From positions 1 to 28,623 of the IMG/VR virus record IMGVR_UViG_3300013093_000202: DNA of 28,623 nucleotides, one strand, 5' to 3'. Origin of the DNA: a virus. Positions within the stretch are counted from its first letter, which is position 1. Every line of letters starts with the position of its first letter. Made by a program: the position numbers and the translations under genes. The notes below the pieces were generated by a model. It had not been told where the DNA came from. It did no database searches and saw only the letters and a list, made by a program, of their open reading frames with translations. Below, piece by piece: positions 22,344 to 28,623 of the stretch.

Positions 22344-22395
22344 AAAAAATAATGTTGTGAGCGATAGCGAAACAACAGATGTTCGCAGAACATCT
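22344..22395 (-). terminator. Rho-independent terminator region of the gp26-led minus-strand operon
   Basis: Read on the minus strand, a perfect eight-pair hairpin (AGATGTTC, loop TGC, GAACATCT; 22377-22395) begins at the stop codon of the last gene. A second hairpin with a TGTTGT/ACAACA stem (22353-22377) follows directly, then a T-rich run (complement of AAAAAA at 22344-22349). The second hairpin plus T run has terminator form; the first may stabilise the transcript end. In the plus direction no T run follows, so it does not look bidirectional. Confidence 0.65.
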
Positions 22396-22730
22396 TACAA
22401 GTCATCTGGAAAATCCCTGAAGAGCGCATGTTGGATCGTCGAACAATCAACAAATTGATTGAATGATTTGTGTTTAGTTTCTAGCTCACCTTCAAGTGGA
22501 GCAACACGTTTAAACGCATCATCCATTTGTGCCATGCCAGTAAACTCCATTAAAATCATAAATTCAGGCATGTCAGCAATACTACGGAATCCCATTTTAC
22601 AACGAGTAATCCTATATGACTCCATCTTTCCTTCGCTGATTAAATGATCAAAAAAACTCTTCATTCCGTTAACCCATTGCAAATCAGAAATGTCGCCTTG
22701 TTTATTTGCCCAGATAGTGTAAATGTCCAT
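22395..22730 (-). CDS. Small conserved hypothetical protein, DUF6614-like
   Basis: The 111-residue protein starts MDIYTIWANKQGDISDLQWV. It contains KMESYRITRCKMGFRSIADM, then FMILMEFTGMAQMDDAFKRV, and ends HALFRDFPDDL. The pattern of an N-terminal strand, a helix, ESYRI.R.K.GF, a central strand with a short helix, and a C-terminal RDFP resembles small ferredoxin-like or dimeric alpha-beta barrel proteins. I recall DUF6614 for this pattern, from memory only. Function is unknown. It has no signal peptide or membrane segment. The ATG overlaps the previous stop (TAATG), and it is the last gene before the terminator, co-transcribed with a tail assembly gene. The link to tail assembly is by position only. 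Confidence 0.6.
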   Translation of the reverse strand: MDIYTIWANKQGDISDLQWVNGMKSFFDHLISEGKMESYRITRCKMGFRSIADMPEFMILMEFTGMAQMDDAFKRVAPLEGELETKHKSFNQFVDCSTIQHALFRDFPDDL

Positions 22731-23659: not shown

Positions 23660-23890
23660 CTAAAAAAATGGTAAGCCGCTTTTCTTAGTGGTCTCTAAGT
23701 TTTCTTTGATAATACGACCAATCAGTTCTCTTTCCGTATAACTAAGATTCATTATTTCATTGTAGGTAATCCCGCCACGCATGTACCAACAGAGTTTAAG
23801 TTGTTCGCTGCGAATCTGTTCGGCCTCCTTATCCATTTTGTCTACCAGTGCTTCAATCTGGTGGTAATTAGAGATTAGGAGGCGGGATCG
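23660..23890 (-). CDS. gp51-like tail assembly protein domain, apparently made as a -1 frameshift extension of the gp26-like protein
   Basis: This frame, open between the TAA just upstream of the slippery site and the TAG at 23660-23662, encodes 76 residues after the slip. The key parts are YHQIEALVDKMDKEAEQIRS, then EQLKLCWYMRGGITYNEIMN, LSYTERELIGRIIKENLETT and KKSGLPFF. The W-Y-M-R-G-G ... ER-E ... TKK-G-LPFF pattern is one I associate with small proteins next to the gp26 gene in T4-like phages, annotated as gp51-like. No ATG, GTG or TTG lies in frame before the methionine at 23836, yet coding-like sequence extends upstream of it. A -1 slip on T TTT TTC would give a 351-residue fusion. Internal starting at 23836 (GGTAG a few bases before) remains possible. 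Confidence 0.75.
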   Translation of the reverse strand, partial: RSRLLISNYHQIEALVDKMDKEAEQIRSEQLKLCWYMRGGITYNEIMNLSYTERELIGRIIKENLETTKKSGLPFF

Positions 23891-24714
23891 AAAAAATTAG
23901 CCATATCCAATGTAAAGACCTGTGTATATTGATGCTGACATGCTGGGCATGTAACATTTAATGGTTTAAGTTCACTATCTTCTCGTAATTTAATAACATA
24001 ATCTCTAACAGCGGTGAATAAATTTCGATCGCAGTTGTGTAAAAATTCTTCAATGTGAGCTTGCTCGACAACAATACTGTTAGGAGTTCTTATTTCTGTA
24101 ATACTTTGACTCATTGCAGTTACAGTGACTTCAACAAGACTTTTCATCATTGAGTTAAGACGTGTTATTTTATCTGTTTCGGGCATTTCGGTATTATCGT
24201 TGACTGCTTGCAACATTTTTTGTTGTTCAAACTGTTTCAAACTATTGTTGGTCATTTCGCGATATGACAACGGACGGAAATGTAATTGCAAGTCACCCTT
24301 GACTAAAGGCTGATCGAAATCAGCGGATTTTAAGTTATCAATAACTGTGCGTAAATCTAAACCAAAATCATGTTCTTCGCCGCAGCTGGGACAAGTTGAT
24401 GAAATATCCATACTATGCCCATAACTGGCAATACGTATAGCAACTAACAGCACATCTAAGTCGATACTGGGAGTTGCCCAAGCATTAATAACATTTGGAC
24501 AGCAGCTTTGTATAACTCCGGTCACTGCTTCGCCATTGAACAAGGCGTCCGGAGTACGATAAGTGATTTCGTCAATTGCAGTCATTGGTAACACAGGCAA
24601 TTCGCCGTTTTCGGGATAGTTCAAAGAACCAGCAGGCCAGTTCTTGCCGTTACTGGGTAAACGTGTGTAAATGGCCGGTTGACGGAAAAACTTCATTAGC
24701 GGATTGGAATTCAT
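23875..24714 (-). CDS. 26: gp26-like baseplate hub assembly protein / tail assembly chaperone with a four-Cys zinc site
   Basis: This 279-residue protein opens with a turn-rich segment (IYTRLPSNGKNWPAGS) and PVLPMTAIDEITYRTPDAL, then a helical part with LDVLLVAIRIASYGHSMDIS. C108-x-x-C111 (TCPSCGEE) and C256-x-x-C259 (TCPACQHQ) bracket the middle and probably bind one zinc. The LPS-G-K start, the VLPMTA-DEI and PDAL segments and the VAIR-ASYGH stretch fit gp26-like proteins of T4-like phages. Such proteins help assemble the hub and tape measure rather than stay as major virion parts. T4 gp26 has 208 residues. The stop lies inside the overlap with the next frame, twelve bases after the slippery heptamer. 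AAGGA precedes the ATG. It is divergent from the tape measure gene, 60 bases away. Confidence 0.72.
   Translation of the reverse strand: MNSNPLMKFFRQPAIYTRLPSNGKNWPAGSLNYPENGELPVLPMTAIDEITYRTPDALFNGEAVTGVIQSCCPNVINAWATPSIDLDVLLVAIRIASYGHSMDISSTCPSCGEEHDFGLDLRTVIDNLKSADFDQPLVKGDLQLHFRPLSYREMTNNSLKQFEQQKMLQAVNDNTEMPETDKITRLNSMMKSLVEVTVTAMSQSITEIRTPNSIVVEQAHIEEFLHNCDRNLFTAVRDYVIKLREDSELKPLNVTCPACQHQYTQVFTLDMANFFDPAS
23890..23896 (-). promoter_or_regulatory. Candidate -1 programmed ribosomal frameshift site, T TTT TTC
   Basis: On the minus strand the heptamer T TTT TTC is in phase with the gp26-like frame (AAT TTT TTC GAT) at residues 273-276, just before its TAA. A -1 slip re-pairs both codons as TTT and enters the downstream 76-residue frame. 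A weak hairpin (ACCAG/CTGGT) lies about 26 bases beyond. This matches the tail assembly gene layout of many long-tailed phages (lambda G and G-T). Confidence 0.7.
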
Positions 24715-24774: not shown

Positions 24775-27700
24775 ATGACAGAAGCCGAATTACAAGATCT
24801 ATTAGAAAAGATTGCCCGCCAGACCGAATCCCTGGAGGAACTTACTTCTACCTTAAAAAACAATAATAAAGCCAATAAAGCAGGTGCATCCTCTAGCGGA
24901 AGCGATTATTCAGAATCTTATTCAAAACTTGCAAAAACCCTTGGCGAATCTGTTAGTAGTGCGATTTCAAAATCATTTATTACAAAATCTCGTACAGAAA
25001 AAGTAGCAAGCAAAGCAACCGGTGCGGCGTATAAAGCCGGAGCAACTGCAACAGATTCAATGAAAGCAGGCGACATTGCTGTTAAAAACTTTACTAAAGC
25101 AGTTAACAAAGCAGCAGGAGATCTAACAAGTTCTTTTGCATCGTTAGGTTCGTCTTTTACGAAAGGTACTGCTGGTGCTGCTTCATTTGCTGACGCAGCA
25201 GCATCGGGTGGGAAATTCTTATTAGCAACATTTGGAGCATCTGGTCCTTGGGCTGTAGCAGCAGAACTGGCCTTGGATGCAATGGTCGCATCTGCTAAAC
25301 AAGCAGATAAGCTGCATGCAAAAAACGAAGAATTACAAAAATCCGGTGCTAATGCCACTGATGGGTTAAACAGCGTCAACAAGATGCTGGGCAATTTTGG
25401 ACTTAGCGTCGATGAAGCCAATAAAATGCTCAGCCTGTTGTCAGGTAATACACAAGCATTACTCATGTTTCGCACAACAGTTGCAGACGGCGCCGATGCT
25501 TTGTCAAAAGTATTCGCCGATATGGGCGAGTCAGGTCTAAGAAAAGAATTAAAATTATTAGGCGTAAGCTACGAAGAACAAAGAGAAAGTTTAGCAAGTA
25601 ATCTATCACTTCAATCAAGACTTGGTCGATCTCAACAGATGTCAGTTAAAGACATGGCAAAAAGTACTGCTGATTATCTAAGAGAACAAGATGCCCTGAC
25701 ACGATTAACCGGTGCTACACGCAAGGAGCAGGAAAACGCTCGCGAACGTTTTATGGCCCAAGAACAAGCTCGTTTAAAAATTGAAAAATTAAAGCGAGAA
25801 GGTAAAACTGATGAAGCTGCTAATTTAGAGCAGACTAATAAACAAGTAACAGCTATTTTTGGCGAAGACATTGCTAAACAATTTGCTACAATGTCTGATG
25901 GTATTATCACTGAACAAAACAAAGGTCTGCAGATTTTAACCAATGGTATGGCAAGAGAAATTGCCATGCGTAAAGACTTAACACCGTCACAAAAAGCTGA
26001 TGAACTACGTAAAGCATTAAAAGCAGCACAAGGTGGAGGTGTTGAGCAACAGGCAGCAGTAGGAAACTTTGAAAAATTAACCGGCATCAATTACGGCAAG
26101 TATATGGATGCAATGGAAAAATCCACTGATCTTGAAAAACGTCGCAATGATGTTATGCAGCAACAGTTAAAACTGTCAGAAGGCAAAGGCAACGTTAAAG
26201 AAATGGCTGATATTGACGAAGCCAATTTAAAAATAAAAAAAGCCTGGATGGATTTCTTGCAATTAGTTCAAGGTCCGTTAATGAAAGGTTTTTCTATAGT
26301 GGCCAAAGTTGTCGGTGCGCTTGCTTCTGCATTCAGCGCACTGTTTAAAGCAGTAGAATTTATCGGTGATGTTATTGATAAACTATCAGAGGCGGTTGAT
26401 ACTATATTGACACCTTTTACCAGGCTCGGTGATGCAATTTCAAGTTTGATCGAAACTATAACAAATTGGATAGCGCATCCGATTGACTCAATTGGTAACT
26501 TATTCAGTTCAGGTGGATACACCGGCGATGGTGGCAAATACGAACCTGCTGGTGTAGTACACAAAGGCGAATATGTTTTAAATGCAGAAACAACTCGAGC
26601 ACTGGGTTTAAATCAATTGCCTGGCTATGCCAGCGGCGGCCTTGTAGGAAATGCAGGCATTAAAAACATAACAGGTGGCGGTGGTGATCTCACTGATACC
26701 AACAAGACTGTACATTCTTTTGATGAAGGTCTGAAAAAGATAATGCAAAACCCAGCCTTATTTGGCACCGGCGATAATAGTTTGCTTGGGTCAAGAGGTG
26801 TATTATCTCAATTGACAGATACATTTAAAAATCTATTAGATTCAATTGATGGTACTGGCGGCAGTCTTATTGATACAATTACTGGTTGGTTTTCCAAAAG
26901 TTCGGCACCGACAGCTACTGGAGTAAACTGGTCAGGCGGAAGTTATTCTGGCGGAACTGGCGGAACTGGTGGTGGTTATGTTATAGGTGGAGGAACAACT
27001 GGTGGCGGTGCTGCTACCGGAAACATACCTGCTACGCAACGAGGAATGAAAGGTGGAGCTACACAAGCTGGTCCTGCAGCTCCTGCATACGAAGGCCTTG
27101 GCAGTATGTCTGCCAAGTACGAATCTGGATCCAGAGGTAGTGAAGCAATAGGATACGATAAAACCGGGGGTACCAGCTACGGCAAATATCAAATAGCCTC
27201 AAAAACTGGTACTATGGATAAGTTCATGAGTTATCTTCAGGAAACTAATCCAGCAGCCGCAGCAAAACTACAAGCAGCAGGTCCGGCAGATTCTGGTAAA
27301 GATGGCAAGTTTGCTCAAACTTGGCAGGATATGGCCAAATCTGGAGAATTAGGAACTTCCGAACACGATTTTATAAAGAAAACACACTACGATCCTGCAA
27401 TGGCTGGCATTAAGGACAAAGGCCTATCTGACATGATCGGAGGTAACAAAGCCCTCCAAGACATGATGTGGAGTACTTCTGTACAGCACGGTGGTGCAGG
27501 TGCATCTGGCATAATGAACAAAGTTTATAAGCCGGGTATGAGTGCAGAAGATCTTACTAAAGCTGTATATGCAGAACGCGGTACAAGATTTGGCAGCAGT
27601 GACGAAAAAACTCGTGCTAGTGTTCAAAGTCGTTTTGGAAAAGAACAAGAAGAAACTTTAGCAAGATTAAAAGACCCTAACTCAAACGTAGCAATGGCTG

Positions 27701-28029
27701 CTCCCGGAATGCCTGTTGCGGCTGCTCCTGGAATGCCCGGAGCTGTTGATGCGAACGGACAGCCTATAGCTGGACCGACAATGCCTGTTGCAACAACAGC
27801 ACCTACATCTACTCAAGTTTCAGACATGATGGCCGGTGCTCAGGCACAAAACCAAGCTGTAGTTGCTGGGGGAGTTGGAGCTGCAACTGCAGGAGCAGGA
27901 GCTACCGGCGCAAATCAAGAAACAGCACAAGCTGATCCGCATCAAACACAATTATTAGAAAATCTAGTGTCATTGACTCGAGATCAAAACGCTACTATGA
28001 ACAAAATACTACAGAGTAGTACAGCTTAG
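24775..28029 (+). CDS. Tape measure protein with C-terminal peptidoglycan hydrolase domain
   Basis: The 1084-residue protein begins with a coiled coil ([20 protein letters not shown]), then long Ala/Lys/Ser-rich helices. Hydrophobic stretches lie at about 140-180 ([20 protein letters not shown]) and 505-575 ([19 protein letters not shown]). A typical tape measure segment follows at about 580-625: [20 protein letters not shown] then [12 protein letters not shown]. After a Gly/Thr-rich linker (about 710-760), residues about 780-960 carry [40 protein letters not shown] and [13 protein letters not shown]. These resemble the peptidoglycan-cleaving C-terminal domain of VgrG3-type spikes, with E783 as a likely catalytic residue. 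The end is Ala/Pro-rich and finishes in a coiled coil. The protein sets tail length and may open the cell wall on injection. T4 gp29 (590 residues) lacks the hydrolase, as I know it. Confidence 0.85.
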
Positions 28030-28062: not shown

Positions 28063-28623
28063 ATGGCAGATCAAGACAAAAAAGGGTGGAAAAAGTATTT
28101 TAAAGTCGCTAACGTAGCCGGCGACATAAGTCCATTGTCTGGCAGAGGTGCCGATGGATTGCCCGGATACGGACGTAACGATGGACGTGATCCTTTACGT
28201 GGACATGCAGATATTGTATATCGTAATTATGCAAGTCGTTTGCCCGAAGTTTATACAGGACATCCTAATCGCGTTGAGCGTTATAATCAGTACGAAAACA
28301 TGGATAGCGATACAGAAATCAATGCCTGTTTGGATATCTTAGCTGAATTTTGTACACAAACTACAGGTGACAATGTAGTACCTTTCCAAGCCAAATATAA
28401 TGATAAACCAACTGATAACGAAGTTGAAATTATTAAAAAACAACTGTTACAGTGGGTTAAACTTAACAAGTTAGATCAACGTATCTTCCGTATTTTCCGT
28501 AATGTACTCAAATACGGCGATCAAGTATTCATTCGTGACCCTGAAACATTTGAGTTAATGTGGACTGACATGACTAAAGTTGCTCGTGTTATTGTTAACG
28601 AGTCAGAAGGTAAGCGTCCAGAA
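28063..28623 (+). CDS. 20: Portal vertex protein, T4 gp20-like, 3' end outside the window
   Basis: The frame opens at the ATG at 28063 and runs to the window edge (187 residues). The N-terminus is MADQDKKGWKKYFKVANVAG. Further on it has the portal pattern RYNQYENMDSDTEINACLDI, LAEFCTQTTGDNVVPFQAK, LDQRIFRIFRNVLKYGDQVF and IRDPETFELMW, typical of gp20 of T4-like phages. gp20 forms the twelve-fold ring through which DNA enters and leaves the head, and to which the neck binds. T4 gp20 has 524 residues, so roughly two thirds lie beyond the window. It begins 33 bases after the tape measure stop on the same strand, with CGGAATAG as a weak ribosome site, so the two are probably read together. The protease, scaffold and head genes would be expected to follow. 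Confidence 0.9.
   Translation, partial: MADQDKKGWKKYFKVANVAGDISPLSGRGADGLPGYGRNDGRDPLRGHADIVYRNYASRLPEVYTGHPNRVERYNQYENMDSDTEINACLDILAEFCTQTTGDNVVPFQAKYNDKPTDNEVEIIKKQLLQWVKLNKLDQRIFRIFRNVLKYGDQVFIRDPETFELMWTDMTKVARVIVNESEGKRPE

Follow-up and report, generated by a model that had tools for sequence, protein, structure and literature searches.

In phage λ, a -1 slip near the end of a short gene yields gpG and gpG-T, the C-terminal domain being carried on the long form, and the pair is encoded beside the tape measure gene. The λ heptamer, G GGA AAG, is unlike the T TTT TTC of the locus described here. According to the abstract of Vladimirov et al., frameshifting is reportedly conserved in several groups of T4-like phages, with T4 itself said to use genes 26 and 51. 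Vladimirov, Gautam and Davidson (Virology 2022) are credited with identifying the tail assembly chaperone genes of T4-like phages, and two papers that cite their work mention poly-T slip signals in the genes of the short form, TAC-N (PMC12846349), and, for some T4-like phages, a short and a long copy as distinct genes in place of a frameshift (PMC10885494). An earlier note on the DNA analysed here, made from its letters alone, knew of no described slip in such phages; judging from these two citing papers it had already been reported, and frameshifting of the tail chaperone in T4-like phages is, as a general finding, not new.

For Pseudomonas phage Adele (Vandenendeviridae/Andersonviridae), a T-rich motif within the TAC-N gene has been described as the site of a -1 frameshift, and the downstream frame is annotated as a separate gene, as in our case; the motif, however, is GTTTTT, and the phage families are different (PMC12846349). 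T4 gp26 and gp51 are counted among the hub assembly chaperones; the particle does not contain gp51, which is nevertheless required (PMC3004832).

The present locus resembles the T4-like systems of Vladimirov et al., as these are described in the citing papers, in its proposed short TAC-N and long TAC-NC forms and in a poly-T slip within TAC-N; in some T4-like phages the gene copies are split. It differs from λ in that the tape-measure gene is divergent. With T4 genes 26 and 51 it shares the protein family, gp51 apparently corresponding to the long form in domain order, but T4 has two separate divergent genes where this locus has one gene and a slip.

Results

The DNA studied, IMGVR_UViG_3300013093_000202, positions 1 to 28,623, is a fragment of a viral genome; this whole stretch of 28,623 nucleotides is referred to as the window. 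On its minus strand, positions 23875..24714 encode a gp26-like protein of 279 residues (plus stop codon), the short form TAC-N, which matches PF12322 (T4_baseplate, 2.7e-16) and phrog_150 (baseplate hub, 1e-16). Its AlphaFold2 model has a pLDDT of 85, with residues 275-279 alone below 50, and a Foldseek search with this model returned a T4-like baseplate hub assembly protein at 5e-24. The same fold was found in uncharacterised proteins of 400-550 aa from other large phages, for example Ralstonia RSF1 and Erwinia Special G, which on these models are possible long single-chain relatives of gp26. A search of the PDB with the gp26 fold gave no match at E<=0.001 and hence, for the comparison with λ gpG, nothing that ties the fold to a tail chaperone of solved structure.

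The adjacent, divergent gene (24775..28029, plus strand) encodes a tape-measure-like protein of 1084 aa that matches phrog_1506 (9.7e-13) and phrog_24 (2.9e-10), both tail length tape measure protein. Beyond it lies a T4-like portal gene, gp20 (28063..28623, plus strand; PF07230, 1.1e-15), which is cut by the window end and serves as a lineage marker. This neighbourhood of gp26-like, tape-measure-like and portal genes is also present in jumbo phages such as 121Q, GAP32 and RaK2. Residues 775-957 of the tape-measure-like protein match the T6SS VgrG3-like C-terminal domain (PF21277, E 1.7e-32), and given this match the protein may include a cell-wall-degrading domain. The T4-like tail region also holds a DUF6614 protein at 22395-22730 (PF20319, E 1.6e-22).

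The gp26-like gene ends, on the minus strand, in ATG GCT AAT TTT TTC GAT CCC GCC TCC TAA. As the earlier note had seen, an in-phase heptamer T TTT TTC occupies positions 23896-23890, 12 nt ahead of the stop. The -1 frame (23660..23896, minus strand) is closed by a TAA directly 5' of the slip; from the slip on, 78 codons, namely FF and the 76 residues noted earlier, can be read before the stop at 23660-23662. The sizes given for the two products, 279 residues for the short protein and 351 for the fusion, agree with the sequence. Sixteen other genes of the window were checked, and none has an in-phase X3-[A/T]3 heptamer less than 60 nt from its stop; no other in-phase heptamer of this type in the window opens a -1 frame of more than 40 codons. 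The combination of heptamer and open frame in the window is more than chance.

The relatives fetched comprise 88 loci from IMG/VR that belong to the window's lineage (a few representing the same contig twice), 80 cyanophage-type loci and 16 jumbo-phage isolates; neither large set was retrieved with a pattern that covered the slip region. With Bakedbeans gp26 as query, no IMG/VR relatives were found. An in-phase T6 heptamer is present in every locus (88/88, 80/80 and 16/16), and it reads TTTTTTC in 183 of the 184. The exception, Xanthomonas phage XacN1 (locus L024, 3783), is the sole jumbo isolate with a T7 slip, TTTTTTT, after which the predicted fold shows a strong hairpin. In the cyanophages the heptamer lies invariably 3 nt ahead of the stop. 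Among unique coding sequences, T|TTT|TTC was found in 72/72 of the window lineage, 77/77 cyanophages and 15/16 jumbo phages. Just 60-72% of the other Phe codons in the three groups are TTT, and other Phe-Phe pairs are written T|TTT|TTC in 1/50, 0/92 and 0/3 cases, respectively. Judged by these codon counts, the heptamer and its phase are conserved beyond codon usage, and the junction comparison proposed in the earlier note found the same relative phase in all three groups. The counts come from related sequences and are not independent events, but the range of identities is wide, with protein identity to the window falling to ~25% among jumbo phages.

Wherever the contig extends far enough, 61-81 codons of the -1 frame are open. 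It contains no stop in 65/65 unique relatives, whereas the other two frames have about 5 per 70 codons. In some relatives (L002, L004) a GIY-YIG-looking reading frame follows the long form, 3' of the -1 frame, and is possibly, by its sequence, a homing endonuclease insertion.

Two other phages depart from this arrangement. Synechococcus phage S-SCSM1 (L029, 3675-3874) has kept TTTTTTC, but its gp51-like frame is in +1, not -1, and has its own ATG, which reflects either a change to independent initiation or an error in sequencing. Pseudomonas phage Cygsa01 (L031, 3280-3482) is without the heptamer; the gp26 stop and the gp51 start overlap in TAATG, the start codon apparently replacing the slip.

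Sequences that could assist the slip differ among the groups. In the window, a spacer of 6 nt (23884..23889, minus strand) separates the heptamer from GCCUCCU (23877..23883), the 5' arm of a probable stimulatory stem, whose 3' arm, AGGAGGC (23823..23829), lies within the -1 coding frame; folding of the window segment (z -2.64) gives exactly this stem. In the window's lineage, GCCUCC(U) begins 6 nt past the heptamer, and its pairing partner, (A)GGAGGC, follows after about 47 or 68 nt; the 6-nt distance lies in the 5-9 nt range looked for in a stem that stimulates a -1 slip. In 68 unique sequences the partner was located at +67 in 33 and at +88 in 23, at both positions in 0 and at neither in 12; other pairings occur among these 12, such as GCUCUUAGUUUU/GAAACUAAGAGC in L096 and GGCUCCUGAUCU/GGAUCAGGAGUC in L037. 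The Glu codon at the paired Glu-Ala site is GAG in 33/35 and 23/36 cases at the two positions, compared with 79/368 elsewhere, and where both Glu-Ala sites are present, GAG is used at exactly one of them in 6/7. An alignment of 30 first-site sequences has 86% of cells paired versus 30-54% in slid controls, a percentage that is biased upward because the rows were picked for having the stem; the stronger point is that three pairs are changed on both sides. Codon-preserving shuffles of the window lineage yielded a mean z of -1.8, with p<0.05 in 48% of sequences. On these comparisons, the stem probably promotes the slip in the window's lineage.

We also considered the GGAGG of the 3' arm as an ordinary ribosome site and rejected it, as the window has just an ATT codon after it and GAG is chosen at whichever of the two alternative sites pairs. 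A downstream stem common to all groups was likewise discarded: the shuffles gave no significant signal in jumbo phages (mean z -0.2) or cyanophages (mean z -0.7) as groups. All 70 unique cyanophage sequences (from loci L112-L191) have a Shine-Dalgarno-like GAGG, GGAGG, AAGG or AGGA 8-10 nt upstream of the heptamer. This site falls within a conserved Glu-Gly pair and is therefore partly protein-driven; GAG is nonetheless enriched there (46:31 vs 552:1270, p 2e-7). The site is absent from the jumbo group and from the window lineage (0/63), by which an upstream Shine-Dalgarno stimulator in the window was dismissed. In most enterobacterial jumbo phages neither a downstream stem nor a Shine-Dalgarno-like site is clear.

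T4 gp51, a protein of 249 aa, consists of a gp26-like domain and an extra C-terminal part, and T4 genes 26 and 51 are divergent neighbours. PF12322 matches both T4 proteins (gp26, 8.8e-64; gp51, 3.9e-52), as does phrog_150, and the two are therefore paralogues. To relate the joined long forms to gp51, their profiles were compared with four Straboviridae gp51 sequences. The cyanophage long forms align with T4-type gp51 over 235 columns (probability 98.6, E 8.7e-16), unbroken at the slip, and the jumbo long forms do so more weakly (probability 88.7, E 2.6e-6). The full long form of the window lineage aligns poorly (probability 5), and its extension alone gives a weak match at the corresponding C-terminal position (probability 56, E 1.1e-4); the same extension and that of the jumbo phages are clear homologues (E 6.9e-26). 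By these profile alignments, the evidence that the joined form is homologous to T4-type gp51 appears strong for the cyanophages, moderate for the jumbo phages and weak, when measured directly, for the window lineage. A fold search with the extension in BFVD, together with sequence searches of the PDB, found nothing.

The earlier note had read the locus as a gp26-like and a gp51-like protein joined by the slip. The slip junction is well supported, but the second open reading frame appears to correspond only to the C-terminal domain of gp51 and not to the whole protein; since T4 gp51 is already a complete long form, it is the fusion, and not this second frame, that appears to be its counterpart. 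From the domain order, the two T4 genes look like this short and long pair in split form. The 28.6 kb record, a genome fragment, contains one gp26-like match, and the T4 arrangement of split genes 26 and 51 was not found in it. Yet another order is seen in phage RB43 (L194, 2001-3294), which differs from T4 in having a gp51-like gene and, after it on the same strand, a frame of 185 aa that contains gp26-like cysteine motifs.

We consider a small gene of its own in the second frame, translated from an internal start at the first ATG (23834..23836, minus strand) or by re-initiation after the gp26 stop, to be very unlikely. Such a gene would agree with the separate CDS annotated there in most isolates and with the ATG found 3 nt past the gp26 stop in 39 of the 80 cyanophage loci, and at least one lineage, that of Cygsa01 with its TAATG and no heptamer, seems to use a separate start. 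The heptamer, however, is conserved and the ATG is not. In the window, as noted earlier, the frame has no ATG, GTG or TTG until the 19th residue after FF, and this ATG is without a Shine-Dalgarno match; among relatives the first ATG shifts to codon 16, 20, 5, 21, 8 or elsewhere, the PA5oct frame has no start codon whatever, and a Shine-Dalgarno match is missing in 84/88 loci of the window lineage, 69/80 of the cyanophages and 12/14 of the jumbo phages. Coding conservation begins at the slip and not at the ATG: an alignment of 28 rows shows no variation at F1, F2, R3, L6 and L7, which are five of the first seven residues in the extension, and these residues precede the first ATG of the window and of most relatives. 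The earlier note had pointed to coding-like sequence ahead of the window's ATG. AlphaFold2 predicts the extension to be helical from its second residue (pLDDT 81). That T4-type gp51 is a fused protein also argues against a separate gene. A clear ATG with a ribosome site, or a non-conserved heptamer, was looked for in the window's lineage and was not found. An internal start could be used in addition to the slip.

Slippage of the polymerase rather than of the ribosome, by which mRNAs would gain one base or lose two, we hold to be extremely improbable. T6 runs can lead to such slippage in AT-rich genomes, but here the run is fixed at T6 followed by C, without a longer T run, in 183/184 loci, its codon-phased position fits the ribosome, and so does a downstream RNA stem at a spacing of 6 nt. 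Homopolymer runs are also error prone, and the frame break might be put down to an indel introduced into a single intact gene by sequencing or assembly. The chance of this is next to nil: the same break occurs in 184 records, finished isolate genomes included, with a conserved stop in the 0 frame, and because the break is conserved the indel reading is refuted. A -1 slip in translation is the reading followed below.

Discussion

Our analysis suggests that one mRNA very probably gives rise to two proteins, a short TAC-N and a long TAC-NC, through a -1 slip. Most ribosomes would stop at the TAA and release the 279-aa gp26-like protein. A minority would move back by one base at U UUU UUC, probably assisted by the stem 6 nt downstream, and would then read the -1 frame to complete a protein of 351 aa, whose additional C-terminal domain would be helical. 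TAC-N and TAC-NC would probably assemble on the neighbouring tape-measure protein, the expected client of such a chaperone pair, and keep hold of it until polymerisation of the tail tube. We infer the slipping, its rate and the chaperone role; the adjacent tape-measure gene and the roles of T4 gp26 and gp51 suggest a tail assembly chaperone pair as the natural reading. The -1 frameshift and the design resembling λ G/GT that the earlier note had proposed for this phage are strongly supported by the heptamer, the open frame, their conservation, the co-varying stem and the gp51 alignments of the relatives.

The chances seem to us evenly divided that T4-like phages have an ancient, fixed slip whose helper is lineage-specific and mobile. 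The helper would then be a stem with its 3' arm at one of two sites 21 nt apart in the window lineage and a Shine-Dalgarno-like site in the cyanophages, with no slip where the genes are split, as in T4, or where a start codon replaces it, as in Cygsa01. What is possibly new here is the window's lineage and its stimulator. We found neither the two-site stem nor a lineage difference in helper signals described in the literature, and the uncultured window lineage, the movable stem and the cyanophage Shine-Dalgarno-like site may lie outside the coverage of Vladimirov et al.

The findings would correct routine annotation: the long chaperone is missing, or cut to a small gene, in most of the jumbo and cyanophage genomes examined. 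The small downstream gene is labelled 'hypothetical' or 'baseplate hub assembly catalyst', and the data favour one frameshifted protein. The two-site stem offers a natural data set on the evolution of frameshift stimulators. A frameshifted long form would also account for the resemblance of T4 gp51 to a gp26 with an extra domain, and for the lack, in cyanophage annotations, of a full-length counterpart to a T4 assembly protein that is essential but of unknown role (PMC3004832).
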